Assembly (NCBI GenBank): GCA_020252485.1
Contig: JADCCX010000014.1
Coordinates: forward strand, 1-64,000
DNA from: Methylocystis sp.
GTDB taxonomy: Bacteria > Pseudomonadota > Alphaproteobacteria > Rhizobiales > Beijerinckiaceae
Direction: 5' to 3'
Length of the DNA stretch: 64,000 nucleotides
Positions 4,867-43,534 of this stretch are shown here, in pieces; position 1 is the stretch's first letter; every line of letters starts with the position of its first letter. The notes beneath the pieces are model-generated. The model was not told the origin of the DNA. It did no database searches and saw only the letters and a program-made list of their open reading frames with translations. Both the position numbers and the translations under genes were made by a program.

Positions 4867-5060
4867 CTGTGAATCCGGGTTAACGAGCGAACTCCATCCC
4901 TCCCCTTGACGGGGAGGGTCGGCGGCGAAAGCCGCCGGGGAGGGGTGATCATGAGGAAAAATCGGAAAAAGCCCCCCACCCGGCCTCGCTGCGCTCGGCC
5001 ACCCGCCCCGCAAGGGGGCGGGATGGGAGCTTGTGGAGGCAATCGTTAACCCGAGTTCAG
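4867..5060. repeat. Long palindromic intergenic repeat, family A copy 1
   Basis: About 194 bases with GC-rich inverted-repeat modules: ccctccccttgacggggagg (4898-4917), GGCGGC GAAA GCCGCC (4921-4936), and CCGCCCCGCAAGGGGGCGGG (5004-5023). Homology to the copy at 32419-32630, in opposite orientation, extends to both ends, including the terminal AATCGTTAACCCG and GTGAATCCGGG. The core module is also the one found inside uvrC at 42924-43054. It fills the rpsT-aldehyde dehydrogenase gap. Confidence 0.85.
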
Positions 5061-9562: not shown

Positions 9563-10152
9563 GATCCGACCCTGAAAAGCGGCGATTCCTTCGCGCCGAA
9601 ATCCGGCGGCGTCAAGGCAGAAAAACCGTATATTTCAGCGACTTGCTGAACGATCATTCAGGAGCGGCGGACATTGCGAAAATTTAATCGCAAAAATTCA
9701 CCATCGGGGGTCATTTCCGCTTGCAATGGCGAGCGTTTGTAGTACCTCTCCTCTCGCCCAATTTCGCACGTGCCTGTGGTTGCGTGCCGGTCGGTGGATC
9801 TCCGGACAAGAGGCCGGAAAAACGCCAACAGTGCTTGAAGTGTCTTGATGGAAACTTCCATCGCTGGACATTTCGCGGACCGGCAGCCGGAGGCGAAAAC
9901 CGGCGGCCCTGCCCGAAGCAGGTGACGCAGCTCAAAGCAACGACGGAGCGGGCTTTTTTAGGCTCTTGTCGGCCCCTCCAAAGGCCGGCGAACTAAAGAG
10001 GCTTGTCCATCTTGCCGGCCGTGCGGTGGGTCTATTCCCCCCAATCGAAAGCGGTTCTCTTTTGAAGTGTCGGCGCAAGCCGGGATTTCACGGGAGGGGT
10101 TTGCTTACGGCGTCACTCGCGCCGGCGAAAGCCGGCATCGGTAGCGATCTTC
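9563..10152. other. Long intergenic region between opgG and the decarboxylase leader
   Basis: About 590 bases between divergent genes with no convincing protein. It should hold the opgG promoter (minus strand; AT-rich 9650-9700) and the promoter and 5' leader of the decarboxylase. Noted structures: a GCCCG (9911-9915) to CGGGC (9949-9953) pairing followed by TTTTTTA (9954-9960), terminator-like but with a long loop, and GCCGGC GAAA GCCGGC at 10121-10136. Confidence 0.5.
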
Positions 10153-25569: not shown

Positions 25570-25624
25570 ACCATGCGATCCGCCGCCCTTGCGGCCCGAT
25601 CCTCTGCCGACTATAGATAACGTT

Positions 25625-25739
25625 ATCTCGTCGGGGTGCCCGAAGGATCGCCAGATCCGGGCTGAGAGATGGACAGGCGCAAGCCTTGATATCAACCCGC
25701 CGAACCTGATCCGGGTTATGCCGGCGGAGGAATCGAGAT
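25625..25739 (+). ncRNA. TPP (thiamine pyrophosphate) riboswitch
   Basis: Contains the invariant thi-box parts TCGGGGTGCCC (25631-25641), GGGCTGAGA (25659-25667) and CCTGATCCGGGTTATGCCGG (25705-25724). The 3' part of P4 overlaps the GGAGG ribosome binding site (25726-25730). P1 can be closed by ATCTCG (25625-25630) with CGAGAT (25734-25739), which includes the first two bases of the permease start codon, so ligand binding should block translation initiation. GATAACGTTATC (25616-25627), a perfect 12-bp palindrome, overlaps the 5' side of P1. Confidence 0.95.
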
Positions 25740-26592
25740 GTCCCTGGCCCTTGAGGGCAGCGGCGCTGGCCGCCAGAACGCTGCCATCCTGTCCCCGCGA
25801 AAAGTTTCTGCGGCCCTGTTGTCTCTGCTGCGATTGCTGCTGAAGCCGCAGGTTGTGGCCCTGCTGGGCGCAGCATTGCTCTGGGAAGGAGCAGTGCGGT
25901 TTTTCCAGATCCCGCTGTGGTATCTGCCGCCGCCCAGCCACATCGCGGTCACCGTCTATCGCAACTTCTCCTACATCCTGCCCAGCGCCGGGATCACAGC
26001 CCTCGAGACGCTGCTTGGGCTGCTGATCGGCATCGCGATCGGGATGGCGCTGGCGCTCGGCATGGCGGCCTCGCGCTGGCTGGCTGAGGCGCTCTCGCCG
26101 CTCGCGGTCGTCAGCCAGGCGATCCCCTTCATTGCGCTCGCGCCCCTGATGATGATCTGGTTCGGCTTCGGGATCACGTCGAAGATTGCGATGGCCGCCA
26201 TCACGATCTTCTTCTCGGTCACCGCGGCCTTCTACGAGGGCCTGCGGCGGACAGATGAGAACCTGCTCGATCTGGCGAGGCTCTACGGCGCTTCGCCCGC
26301 ACAGATCCTGTTCAGCATCAGGGTTCCGGCCGCGCTGCCGCATCTCGCGGCGGGCCTGAAGCTCGCGGCCGCCTACGCGCCGCTTGGCGCCATCGCCGGC
26401 GAATGGGTGGGCTCGGACGGCGGGCTCGGCATCATGATGACCTATCACAACGCCCGCATGCAGACCGACATGGTCTTCGCCGCCATGGTGGTGCTGATCG
26501 CCTTCTGCCTCGCCAACTGGCTTCTGATGTCGCTGCTGACCCGTTATCTGCTGCGCCATTTCCCCGACACGCTGAGCCAACGCGCCGCCTGA
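25738..26592 (+). CDS. thiX: ThiX-type ABC transporter permease (pyrimidine/thiamine precursor)
   Basis: 284 residues with about six membrane helices. The BPD_transp_1 EAA loop is near DLARLYGASPAQILFSIRVPAALPHLAAGLKLA. The upstream helix region LALGMAASRWLAEALSPLAVVSQAIPFIALAPLMMIWFG is typical of nitrate/sulfonate/HMP-type permeases. Control by a TPP riboswitch and pairing with a ThiY-type binding protein indicate import of a thiamine pyrimidine precursor. The start lies inside the riboswitch P1 region. No ATPase gene (thiZ) is found nearby. Confidence 0.9.
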   Translation: MSLALEGSGAGRQNAAILSPRKVSAALLSLLRLLLKPQVVALLGAALLWEGAVRFFQIPLWYLPPPSHIAVTVYRNFSYILPSAGITALETLLGLLIGIAIGMALALGMAASRWLAEALSPLAVVSQAIPFIALAPLMMIWFGFGITSKIAMAAITIFFSVTAAFYEGLRRTDENLLDLARLYGASPAQILFSIRVPAALPHLAAGLKLAAAYAPLGAIAGEWVGSDGGLGIMMTYHNARMQTDMVFAAMVVLIAFCLANWLLMSLLTRYLLRHFPDTLSQRAA

Positions 26593-32418: not shown

Positions 32419-32630
32419 CTGAACGCGGATTAACGATTGCCTCCACCAGCACCCATCCCGCCCCCTTGCGGGGCGGGTGGCCCGGACCCCGGACTTGATC
32501 CGGGGGAAGGGCCGGGTGGGGGGCTTTTTCTCCTTTTCAACCTCATGATCACCCCTCCCCGGCGGCTTTCGCCGCCGACCCTCCCCGTCAAGGGGAGGGA
32601 TGGAGCCCGCATGTTAGCCCGGATCCACAG
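32419..32630. repeat. Long palindromic intergenic repeat, family A copy 2
   Basis: About 212 bases, the inverted partner of 4867-5060 with both ends matching (TTAACGATTGCCTCCAC and GCCCGGATCCACAG). Modules: CATCCCGCCCCCTTGCGGGG (32454-32473), GGCGGC TTTC GCCGCC (32561-32576), CCCTCCCCGTCAAGGGGAGG (32579-32598). It carries a GGACCCCGGACTTGATCCGG insert absent from copy 1. It fills the 400-base gap before the amidase, where no gene was seen. Confidence 0.85.
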
Positions 32631-37244: not shown

Positions 37245-37366
37245 CTTCTCCCCGTTCGCGGGGAGAAGGTGGCGCGAAGCGCCGGATGAGGGGCTGGGTG
37301 AGTTCGCTCGGTGTTCAATCACCATGCCCCTCACCCCGACCCTCTCCCCGCGAGCGGGGAGAGGGA
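37245..37366. repeat. Palindromic repeat (family B) inside the beta-oxidation operon
   Basis: CTTCTCCCCG TTC GCGGGGAGAAG (37245-37267) and CCCTCTCCCCGCGAGCGGGG (37340-37359) flank ggtggcgcgaagcgccggat. It is the CTTCTCCCC type widespread in Rhizobiales. It lies between the thiolase and hydratase/dehydrogenase genes, so it is transcribed within the operon. Confidence 0.8.
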
Positions 37367-41410: not shown

Positions 41411-43534
41411 ATGCGAAGCCCCACACCGAATCGCGGGATTCCTGCGGCCGACCTGCCGCCGGATACCGATGCCGAGGATGACGAGATCCCGCTGGAGCTT
41501 GAACCGCCGCTGGAGCCCGAAGCCGAGGCCGCAGCCTCGGATGTCGAGGCCGGCGCCGAAGTCATCAAGCGCTTCTGGAAAACATTGCCGAACTCGCCGG
41601 GAATCTACCGGATGCTCGATCGGGCGGGCGAGGTCCTCTACGTCGGCAAGGCGAAGAAGCTGAAAGCCCGCGTGGCGAGCTACGCGCGCGGCCAGGGCCA
41701 TTCCAACCGCATCGCGCGGATGATCGCCGAGACATCGGCCATGGAATTCGTCGTCACCGAGACGGAAACCGAGGCGCTGCTGCTGGAGACCAACTACATC
41801 AAGCAGTTCCGCCCGCGCTTCAATGTGCTGATGCGGGACGACAAGAGCTTCCCCTATATCCTCATCACCGGCGATCATGCCGCGCCGCAGATCGTCAAGC
41901 ACCGCGGCGCGCGCAACCGCAAGGGCGATTATTACGGGCCCTTCGCCTCCGCCTGGGCGGTCAAGCGAACGATCGATGCGCTGCAGAAGGCCTTCCTGCT
42001 GCGCACCTGCTCCGACAGCTATTTCGCCAACCGCACGCGGCCCTGCCTGCTCCACCAGATCAAGCGCTGCGCGGGGCCCTGCACCAATGAAGTCACGGAG
42101 GCGGAATATGCCGAGATGGTGCGCGAGGCGAAAGGCTTTCTCACGGGTAAGAGCCAGGCGGTGAAGGCGCATATGGCGGCCGAGATGATGAAGGCCGCCG
42201 ATGCGCTGGAATTCGAGAAGGCGGCCCGCTACCGCAACCGCATCGCCGCGCTTTCGGCGACCGGCGGCGGCAATGACATCAACACGCAGACCGTTGAGGA
42301 GGCGGATGTTTTCGCCATCGCCGAGGAGGCGGGACAATTCTGCATCGAGGTCTTTTTCTTCCGCACCTATCAGAACTGGGGCAACCGCGCCTTCTTCCCC
42401 AGGGCCCATGCCAGCCTGAGCAAGGCGGAGGTGCTCGATGCCTTTATGGCGCAATTCTATGACGACAAGCCGGCGCCCCGGCTGATCCTGCTCTCGGAGG
42501 AGATCGAAAACGCCGCGCTTCTCATGGAGGCCTTCAGCCTGCGCGCCGGCCGCCGGATCGAGATCGCGCGGCCCCAGCGGGGCGAGAAGAAGGACCTGAT
42601 CGCGCATGCGCTGAAGAACGCCCGCGAGGAGCTCTCCCGCCGCCTTGCCCACAGCGCGACGCAGACGAAGCTGCTGGCGGCTTTGGCCGAAGCCTTCGGG
42701 CTCCCGGCTCCGCCGCGCCGGATCGAGGTCTATGACAACTCGCATATCATGGGGACGAACGCCGTCGGCGGCATGATCGTCGCCGGGCTCGATGGCTTCA
42801 AGAAGCAGCATTACCGCATCTTCAACATCAAATCGGCGGAGATCACGCCTGGCGACGATTTCGGCATGATGCGCGAGGTGCTCGAACGGCGCTTCGGGCG
42901 GCTGGTGAAGGAGGGGGGCACCCCATCCCTCCCCCTTGCGGGGAGGGTGGCGAGCGGCAGCGAGCCGGGAGGGGGGCTGGACGATGCCGGCACCCTTCCC
43001 CCTCCCGGTTCGCCGCTTCGCGCCGAACCACCCTCCCCGCAAGGGGGAGGGATGCAGCAGGGCGATCCGGATGCCTTCCCCGCCTGGCCGGATCTGGTCC
43101 TGATCGACGGCGGCAAGGGTCAGGTGGAAGCAGCCAGGGCGACGCTGGAAGGGCTCGGCATCACCCATGTGCCGCTGGTCGGCATCGCCAAGGGCGCCGA
43201 TCGCGAAGCCGGACGCGAGACGTTCATCATGCCGGGCCGCGCGCCGTTCCGGCTGCCGCCGCGCGATCCGGCGCTCTATTTCGTGCAGCGGCTGCGCGAC
43301 GAGGCGCATCGGTTCGCGATCGGGGCGCATCGCGCCAAACGCAAGCGCGAGCTGACGAAAAGCCCGCTCGACGAGATCGGCGGCATCGGCCCTTCGCGCA
43401 AACGCGCGCTGCTCCTGCATTTCGGCACGGCGAAGGCCATCGCGCGGGCCTCGCTCGATGATCTGATGCGCACGCCGGGCGTCAATGCCGCCACGGCGAA
43501 AACGATCTACGCGTTCTTCAACGAGAAGGGGTGA
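41411..43534 (+). CDS. uvrC: UvrABC excinuclease subunit UvrC with an in-frame repeat insertion
   Basis: 707 residues, longer than usual (about 600-650). GIY-YIG domain: [32 protein letters not shown] (about 61-92); UVR domain [19 protein letters not shown]; RNase-H-like domain from [21 protein letters not shown]; (HhH)2 domain [22 protein letters not shown]. It makes both incisions in nucleotide excision repair. Residues about 502-548 are unlike the family: they are Pro/Gly-rich and encoded by the palindrome at 42924-43054. Just after them the conserved [17 protein letters not shown] resumes in frame, so the protein is probably active with a surface loop extended. Confidence 0.94.
42924..43054. 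repeat. Palindromic element inserted in frame within uvrC (family A core)
   Basis: 131 bases with perfect 27-bp ends: 42924-42950 is the exact reverse complement of 43028-43054. The interior is also largely self-complementary (GCGAGCGGCAGCGAGCCGGG against CCCGGTTCGCCGCTTCGCGC). The arm CATCCCTCCCCCTTGCGGGG matches intergenic copy 2 (32454-32473) with a single T/G difference. It is translated as residues 505-548 of UvrC. The length is not a multiple of three, so flanking bases must have restored the frame. Confidence 0.9.

Follow-up and report, generated by a model that had tools for sequence, protein, structure and literature searches.

RPEs, the palindromic elements of Rickettsia, are found inserted in frame in protein genes, and the REPIN concept describes REP doublets that are moved by RAYT transposases. 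In the passages of PMC2229807 and PMC10969869 devoted to them, RPEs measure 105-146 bp, form a long stem-loop and occur both between genes and in frame in conserved protein genes; one carrier protein, a guanylate kinase, is reported there to be active. Correia elements, as treated in one part of PMC2229807, comprise an open-framed 107-bp subtype that is abundant in genes and a 155-bp sister that is almost only intergenic. Sections of PMC3733652 report REPs inside uvrA, uvrB, DNA polymerase I, recB and tRNA synthetase genes, name UvrABCD and DNA polymerase I in the Discussion and suggest that some REPs lie in flexible linkers or loops. The same sections describe REP dimers, as well as CGTC families that are prevalent in alphaproteobacteria, seemingly without a dedicated transposase. 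They place REPs of this gene class at different sites, except in recB of two Xanthomonas, and speculate that REP insertions may have changed repair-protein activity and so produced mutator strains. Repeats inside repair genes are already known, from Rickettsia RPEs and from REPs (PMC3733652).

The element described here lies in the uvrC gene of Methylocystis sp. (41411-43534, plus strand), in the window, i.e. the whole stretch of 64,000 nucleotides that was analysed. The 707-aa product is excinuclease ABC subunit C, with five Pfam models above cut-off, including GIY-YIG, UVR and both UvrC RNase H models, and 533 bits against TIGR00194. The palindrome covers 131 bp (42924-43054, plus strand). 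The first-pass annotation had described its ends as exact reverse complements and had read the element through as UvrC residues 505-548 or thereabouts, and both descriptions hold: the outer arms (42924-42950 and 43028-43054) are 27 nt long, 100% complementary and spaced by 77 nt, and the single open frame 41411-43534 carries the element as residues 505-548. The left arm (plus strand) is translated PSLPLAGRV, and the right arm, which as its exact reverse complement is oriented on the minus strand, reads PPSPQGGGM on the plus strand. An inner inverted pair (42949-42975 and 42998-43024) is 81% complementary and, together with the hairpin tip, occupies 42949-43024 (plus strand), so that almost the entire element folds back. 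As RNA, its predicted folding energy is -117.5 kcal/mol (z -11.5 against 200 dinucleotide shuffles), compared with a z of 0.47 for one 140-nt control stretch of uvrC; a hairpin of this kind in mid-gene may slow translation, as the first-pass annotation had suggested. In size and shape, the element thus has the dimensions of an RPE (~105-146 bp, one long stem-loop). Each arm has the form CCCTCCCC-CTTGC-GGGGAGGG, an 8-bp stem with a 5-nt loop present as an inverted pair, and conforms to the stem described for CGTC/GTAG REPs (8-9 bp stem, 4-5 nt loop, often dimers). Among the REP tags, for which we looked for terminal GTAG or CGTC (also TGTC and CCTC) by comparison with text descriptions only, the UvrC copy has CATC outside a 7-bp stem, and the tag position varies in other copies.

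The element occupies a well-defined place in the protein. Excising its 44 residues leaves 35 aa from RRF to DGG.GQ, close to the 34-37 aa of the shortest insert-free relatives, which looks like a clean insertion. Downstream, a conserved 11-residue block resumes (43085-43117, plus strand), corresponding to a modelled strand (residues 562-566) with the aspartate of LIDGG, which we take to be catalytic; D566, G567, G568, G570 and Q571 are invariant columns in an alignment of 50 UvrC sequences. In an AlphaFold2 model built with 50 aligned UvrC proteins, residues 508-550 have a pLDDT below 50 and are modelled as disordered, between a helix (483-502) and the strand 562-566. Placing the block on a UvrC structure, as had been proposed, therefore locates it in a disordered excursion of the model. 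In the solved UvrC 3c65, the insert site runs from residue 79 to 82, compared with 502 to 559 here.

We then considered the copies of the element in its own genome (4.56 Mb, 176 contigs, 98.8% complete). The core CCCTCCCCCTTGCGGGGAGGG occurs six times in the window at up to 3 mismatches, against 0.01 expected; the 28-nt arm, at the same tolerance, occurs 91 times in the genome, against 0 for the reversed control, and the 28-nt stretch 42923-42950 has exact copies at other genome places. We delimited 83 clusters with 154 arms in 58 genome stretches plus the window; as the stretches were chosen at arm-search matches, copies missed by those searches fall outside this count. The clusters form two classes, 28 with UvrC-type arms and 55 with hybrid arms, hereafter the sister class, most of whose members are intergenic. 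The intergenic repeats of the window (4867-5060 and 32419-32630), to which the first-pass annotation had attributed the same arm as in uvrC, belong to this sister class: over the 21 positions of the UvrC core, their arms have 2-3 mismatches, namely 3 and 2 for the element lying between genes at 4897-5023, and mismatches to the core likewise in the second, at 32456-32600. Frames are open somewhat more often in UvrC-type elements (4.1 of 6 over 12 complete copies, versus 3.3 of 6 over 54 copies of the sister class), which may explain part of their presence within genes.

Three other features of the window were recorded: a copy of a third palindromic family (CTCTCCCCGC..GCGGGGAGAG) at 37342-37363, between FadJ-like and thiolase frames, both recognised by eye; an Rfam ar45 sRNA followed directly by a speF leader on the same strand (9756-10141); and a TPP riboswitch (25622-25749).

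Copies of the element pass in open frame through UvrC and about nine other genes of this genome. Frames spanning an element were compared with Pfam, namely UvrC, ten frames, and then 30 of 34 further spanning frames of at least 200 aa (of the remaining four, L295, on the minus strand, was among the earlier ten and has no family, and three were outside the search); elements without a spanning frame of 200 aa were judged by codon score alone. Defining as firmly internal an element with above-cut-off domains on both sides, or with one domain around it, we found eight such cases among the 28 UvrC-type clusters, in UvrC, PdhB, PolA, an MCC-type biotin carboxylase, Mfd, an acyl-CoA synthetase, IleRS and PutA. 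QueG is less firm, its downstream HEAT match reaching 22.3 bits for a cut-off of 27.7, and so is PdhC, where a 4-mismatch arm lies between the E3-binding and catalytic domains. The count of copies inside coding genes called for by the first-pass annotation thus comes to 10 of 28 clusters, 8 of them firm, and the element has in this respect, too, the distribution of an RPE, with many copies both between genes and in frame in conserved genes. None of the 55 sister clusters is internal by these criteria, ten hybrid frames having been searched against Pfam, of which two have any domain, in both cases downstream of an element near the start. The difference between the classes is significant for all ten genes (Fisher, 5e-6), without QueG and PdhC (8/28 vs 0/55, 8e-5), and by codon score alone, with the same test of one frame on both sides applied to both classes (6/28 vs 0/55, p 0.001). 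Four further genes, encoding BchY, a family-2 glycosyltransferase, an FmdE-domain protein and an ABC permease, were not retained among the ten: the element lies only before the first domain, in a region of uncertain start codon. The frame of BchY, the chlorophyllide reductase subunit Y (L277:2081-3925, plus strand), is a match that suggests a photosynthesis gene set in this genome.

In two of these genes, the insert is absent from all relatives compared. Between fixed anchors, Mfd has 71 aa here, and the insert is absent in 29 of 29 relatives (11-13 aa in 26, the other 3 judged by adjacent match pieces); at site 1 of IleRS, the 63 aa found here are likewise absent in 29 of 29 (8-13 aa in 21, short by a second pattern in 4, and judged by adjacent match pieces in 4). 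PolA is a weaker case for recent insertion, since its relatives align through the insert region; the PolA linker varies. Solved structures also have short or absent loops at the insert sites, as for UvrC 3c65 above: mitochondrial MCC alpha (8j4z) passes from 408 to 410 where the MCC-type protein here passes from 376 to 433, and PutA 3haz from 536 to 555 where PutA here passes from 557 to 610. In 7 of the 10 decorated genes, the right arm yields the peptide PPSPQGGG. In PdhC (pyruvate dehydrogenase E2; L268:4074-5558, plus strand, contig C101), both flexible linkers look element-derived (SSPLAGEVAA... and PPPSPAVEPVKTAQAGLHGGG), and PdhB, on the same stretch (L268:2065-3486), is decorated too. 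IleRS site 1 (L260) and the PdhC linker share an inner unit, SPAV..VKTAQA.LHGGG, as if the loop of the arm had been replaced by a longer palindrome.

Turning to relatives, we collected 210 UvrC loci and could read the loop in 207 (all except L185, L228 and L234), a number that is no count of independent species, since some loci come from duplicate genomes (L066 and L163 have the same loop). The 207 loops range from 21 to 101 aa (median 42) and are dissimilar in sequence, so the block is not conserved in all relatives; such conservation is what the first-pass annotation had set as evidence against insertion. Unrelated palindromes recur in the loop DNA: family A (CTCCCCCTTGYGGGGAG), the kind present in the window, and family B (CCTCATCCTGAGGAG ... 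CGTCTCGAAGGATG plus its mirror); at least two more families, C (G010) and D (G088), were recognised by visual inspection alone and left out of the counts. At up to 2 mismatches, the A core is present in 15 loops and the B core in 13, together 28 of 207 with that of the window included. Only 1 of 2842 same-length segments from the rest of uvrC matches either core, and codon-shuffled versions of the 207 loops give 0 A and 1 B matches. The other 179 loops (median 41 aa) have neither core, and most loop sequence is thus not traced to A or B repeats. These figures replace a blastn comparison of the loops with a pool of flanking DNA (matches in 41 of the 207 loops, and in 114 of 621 control segments), which was discarded because the pool contained uvrC pieces (L236, L165) and because the genome samples were too small for repeats at one copy per 50 kb; we relied instead on counting motifs in the loops and in the remainder of each gene, and on whole-genome pattern counts.

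The A and B loops span seven genera (codes g1, g8, g12, g26, g43, g48 and g54), of which g12 is probably Bosea. On a tree of 127 genomes with the loop cut out (our own, 97 others of the family and the 29 nearest relatives from the same family or order), A is present in 11 genomes and B in 11. This tree requires no fewer than 14 changes when A, B and none are distinguished, at least 12 for element versus none, and at least 9 for element versus none on the starred branches alone; the tree is a quick one with long branches, and these changes count gains and losses together, the two not being separable on it. Within Bosea, A, B and none interleave, in a pattern where replacement, loss and new gain look alike. 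The genus of the window is represented in this comparison by its own genome alone, with no close insert-free sister of its uvrC. Both families are also dispersed repeats, with counts that may include the uvrC copy. Of 298 family genomes, 130 contain the long pattern of family B, for which the control gives 0 matches, and the ten tree genomes with B loops that belong to this sample have 1 to 28 B matches each. The family A core is found in 142 of the 298, with a control of at most 1 per strand and genome; among the 11 tree genomes whose loop is of type A, the number of matches runs from 1, in G281, to 97. By sequence comparison, the UvrC loop is thus a site apparently entered in seven genera by two unrelated families, and the first-pass annotation, which had envisaged an RPE-like process in this lineage, was too modest.

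Once inserted, the blocks in Bosea change in a near-neutral way. For B-type blocks (7 of 13 loops, all Bosea), differences at the three codon positions are 0.268, 0.222 and 0.302, a position 3/2 ratio of 1.36, as against 7.78 for the rest of uvrC in the same set; for A-type blocks (6 of 15 loops, from Bosea plus one Rhizobiales isolate), the ratio is 1.22 against 3.14 (both rest-of-uvrC ratios computed over 410 codons). In Bosea, the UvrC block would therefore appear to drift almost neutrally, with the frame staying open, a pattern of substitution that speaks for tolerance and against a kept change of function. Our tolerance reading is in this sense opposite to the changed-activity argument of PMC3733652. 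All 13 occurrences of the right arm in A-type UvrC loops, however, lie in the frame that gives a PSPQGG-like peptide, though all three forward frames of the arm are open, which makes a filter at the peptide level likely; there may be protein-level selection on which insertions survive.

A second recurrent case is site 2 of IleRS (L260, residues about 544-577), which carries another palindromic family, CTCTCCCCGCNNGCGGGGAGAG, present at 50 places in our genome, 16 in G018 and 13 in G020, with a control of 0. Site 2 is readable in 26 of 29 relatives (of the 3 others, 2 are short in a separate anchor-length comparison): 22 are short, 1 is unclear (L310, from G009) and 3 have palindromic inserts, assigned by eye to the CTCTCCCCGCNNGCGGGGAGAG family in G018, a similar family in G020 and family B in G016. 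Judging from these alignments, IleRS site 2 is probably a second recurrent landing site, with different inserts in four genera (our own, G018, G020 and G016; L260, L309, L311 and L312).

Compared with the described systems, the UvrC element is RPE-like in being palindromic, of similar length and present in intergenic and in-frame copies. Unlike RPEs, it resides in a non-rickettsial, high-GC host of the Hyphomicrobiales, has G+C-rich arms and shares its UvrC loop with unrelated families; the likeness is one of description. It resembles the GTAG/CGTC REPs, as described in sections of PMC3733652, in being palindromic, often dimeric and located in DNA synthesis or repair and tRNA synthetase genes, and differs from them in affecting one site in seven genera, with two families and with decay. 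As in REPINs, there are two inverted REP-like arms per element, but the arms are 77 nt apart with an inner pair between them, and the genome has no Y1 transposase: PF01797, the RAYT-type model, has 0 matches in this 98.8% complete genome, the control search having found it in 5 of 14 genomes. RAYT-driven mobility is accordingly unsupported here. The split between UvrC-type and sister elements repeats the genic/intergenic subtype division of Correia elements, although these and other bacterial MITEs belong to other hosts. The words uvrC, Bosea, Beijerinck and Methylobacterium are absent from the main text of PMC3733652, though a uvrC case may figure in its Figure 7B or Additional file 3. Searching titles and abstract openings, with most subscription journals outside the scope, for a UvrC with a palindromic insert, for such repeats in these genera, for same-site insertion and for the encoded peptides, we found none that reports this loop. 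The feature that looks new is that different families have repeatedly colonised one and the same loop in several genera and have decayed there.

We propose, with a probability of about 0.85, that a non-autonomous palindromic element entered a length-tolerant loop of UvrC without breaking the frame and that, there, it is translated as a disordered loop and tolerated. The element is about 130 bp long, with inverted REP-like arms that enclose an inner inverted pair, and would be moved by a putative mobilising enzyme, landing widely. In UvrC, it would have inserted between the helix ending RRFGRLVKE and the strand PDLVLIDGG, in the RNase H endonuclease domain. Copies landing with an open frame in a flexible loop would survive, translated into a disordered Pro/Gly/Ser-rich loop in a UvrC that presumably still works, and would be kept as tolerated rather than useful, the sequence of the loop being renewed by insertion and then drift. 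The RPE-like entry into coding sequence, with retention as a loop, that the first-pass annotation had put forward is supported by the dissimilar loops of relatives, the ten genes and the disordered model.

The strongest competitor, though an unlikely one, holds that insertions are not merely tolerated: the elements would prefer, or be retained in, excision-repair genes, either because their hairpin is handled by the machinery or through the mutator effect discussed in PMC3733652. UvrC, Mfd and PolA make up 3 of the 10 decorated genes, for a rough length-weighted chance of about 1e-5 (gene lengths and coding fraction being assumed values), or of 0.0006-0.002 when the category is widened to 2-3% of coding DNA and 9 genes are considered; sections of PMC3733652 likewise report many intragenic REPs in replication and repair genes and doubt chance targeting. 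The category was, however, picked after the fact, from among the decorated genes; the seven remaining decorated genes are metabolic or tRNA-related, large multidomain proteins have more linkers, and the almost neutral drift of the UvrC block in Bosea is unlike a kept function. More speculatively, and at similarly long odds, certain loops in housekeeping proteins, namely the RNase H loop of UvrC, the loop preceding the catalytic half of IleRS and the pyruvate dehydrogenase linkers, could be standing landing sites that unrelated palindromic families enter repeatedly throughout Hyphomicrobiales, their insertions providing raw sequence for new disordered linkers; these families would be concentrated in excision-repair proteins because that machinery processes the hairpin of the element during its spread.

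Insertion with tolerance also has to be set against readings in which the element is not simply translated. One of them, that the product loses the element through RNA splicing, ribosome bypassing or proteolysis, would draw on the very strong predicted mRNA hairpin and is very improbable: the frame is open through the block in the 10 genes of our genome and in the 207 loops (the method of reading favours open frames), and in 0 of 28 UvrC-type clusters do the two flanks both exceed the coding threshold of 0.12 in frames that differ on the same strand (among the best frames). We reject splicing and bypassing on the ground that the frame is kept, which bypassing would not need. Equally remote is the idea that the hairpin is kept for tuning the expression of uvrC or the speed of its translation; the predicted mid-gene hairpin, at z -11.5, would suit such a role, but the repeats in the loop have decayed to varying degrees in relatives, and the same element is present in unrelated genes.

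Less probable still is a Pro/Gly/Ser linker selected at the protein level that merely resembles the repeats. Long, variable UvrC loops do exist in this order without recognisable repeats, as the 179 of 207 loops without a core (median 41 aa) attest. Yet the match to genome repeats is at the DNA level, beyond the peptide, the arms are perfect inverted repeats, codon-shuffled loops do not reproduce the 15 A and 13 B matches, and the block has little codon-position bias; for the repeat-bearing loops only, the DNA matches already contradict this account. An assembly error at the repeat, the refutation that the first-pass annotation had foreseen and that a draft of 176 contigs with many repeat copies might invite, is scarcely credible, since both flanks belong to one protein in ten genes, where a misjoin at a repeat would fuse different genes, and since the same loop is affected in other assemblies, two of them single-contig with an A core in the loop (G259, G296).

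Protein-coding palindromes have so far been known from Rickettsia, Wolbachia and scattered other bacteria, nearly always at dispersed sites. The UvrC loop offers instead a natural series at one place: empty, freshly filled by a perfect palindrome, filled by another family, or decayed toward a featureless linker. Such a series makes it possible to ask, by comparison, whether repair proteins simply tolerate their inserts or are altered by them, with the mutator effects considered in PMC3733652, and how fast non-coding repeat DNA turns into ordinary protein sequence. For annotators, it is a warning that repeats can be the origin of long Pro/Gly-rich insertions when these occur in conserved proteins of such bacteria. 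With read-through as predicted here, junk-like DNA would repeatedly become protein at one tolerant spot.
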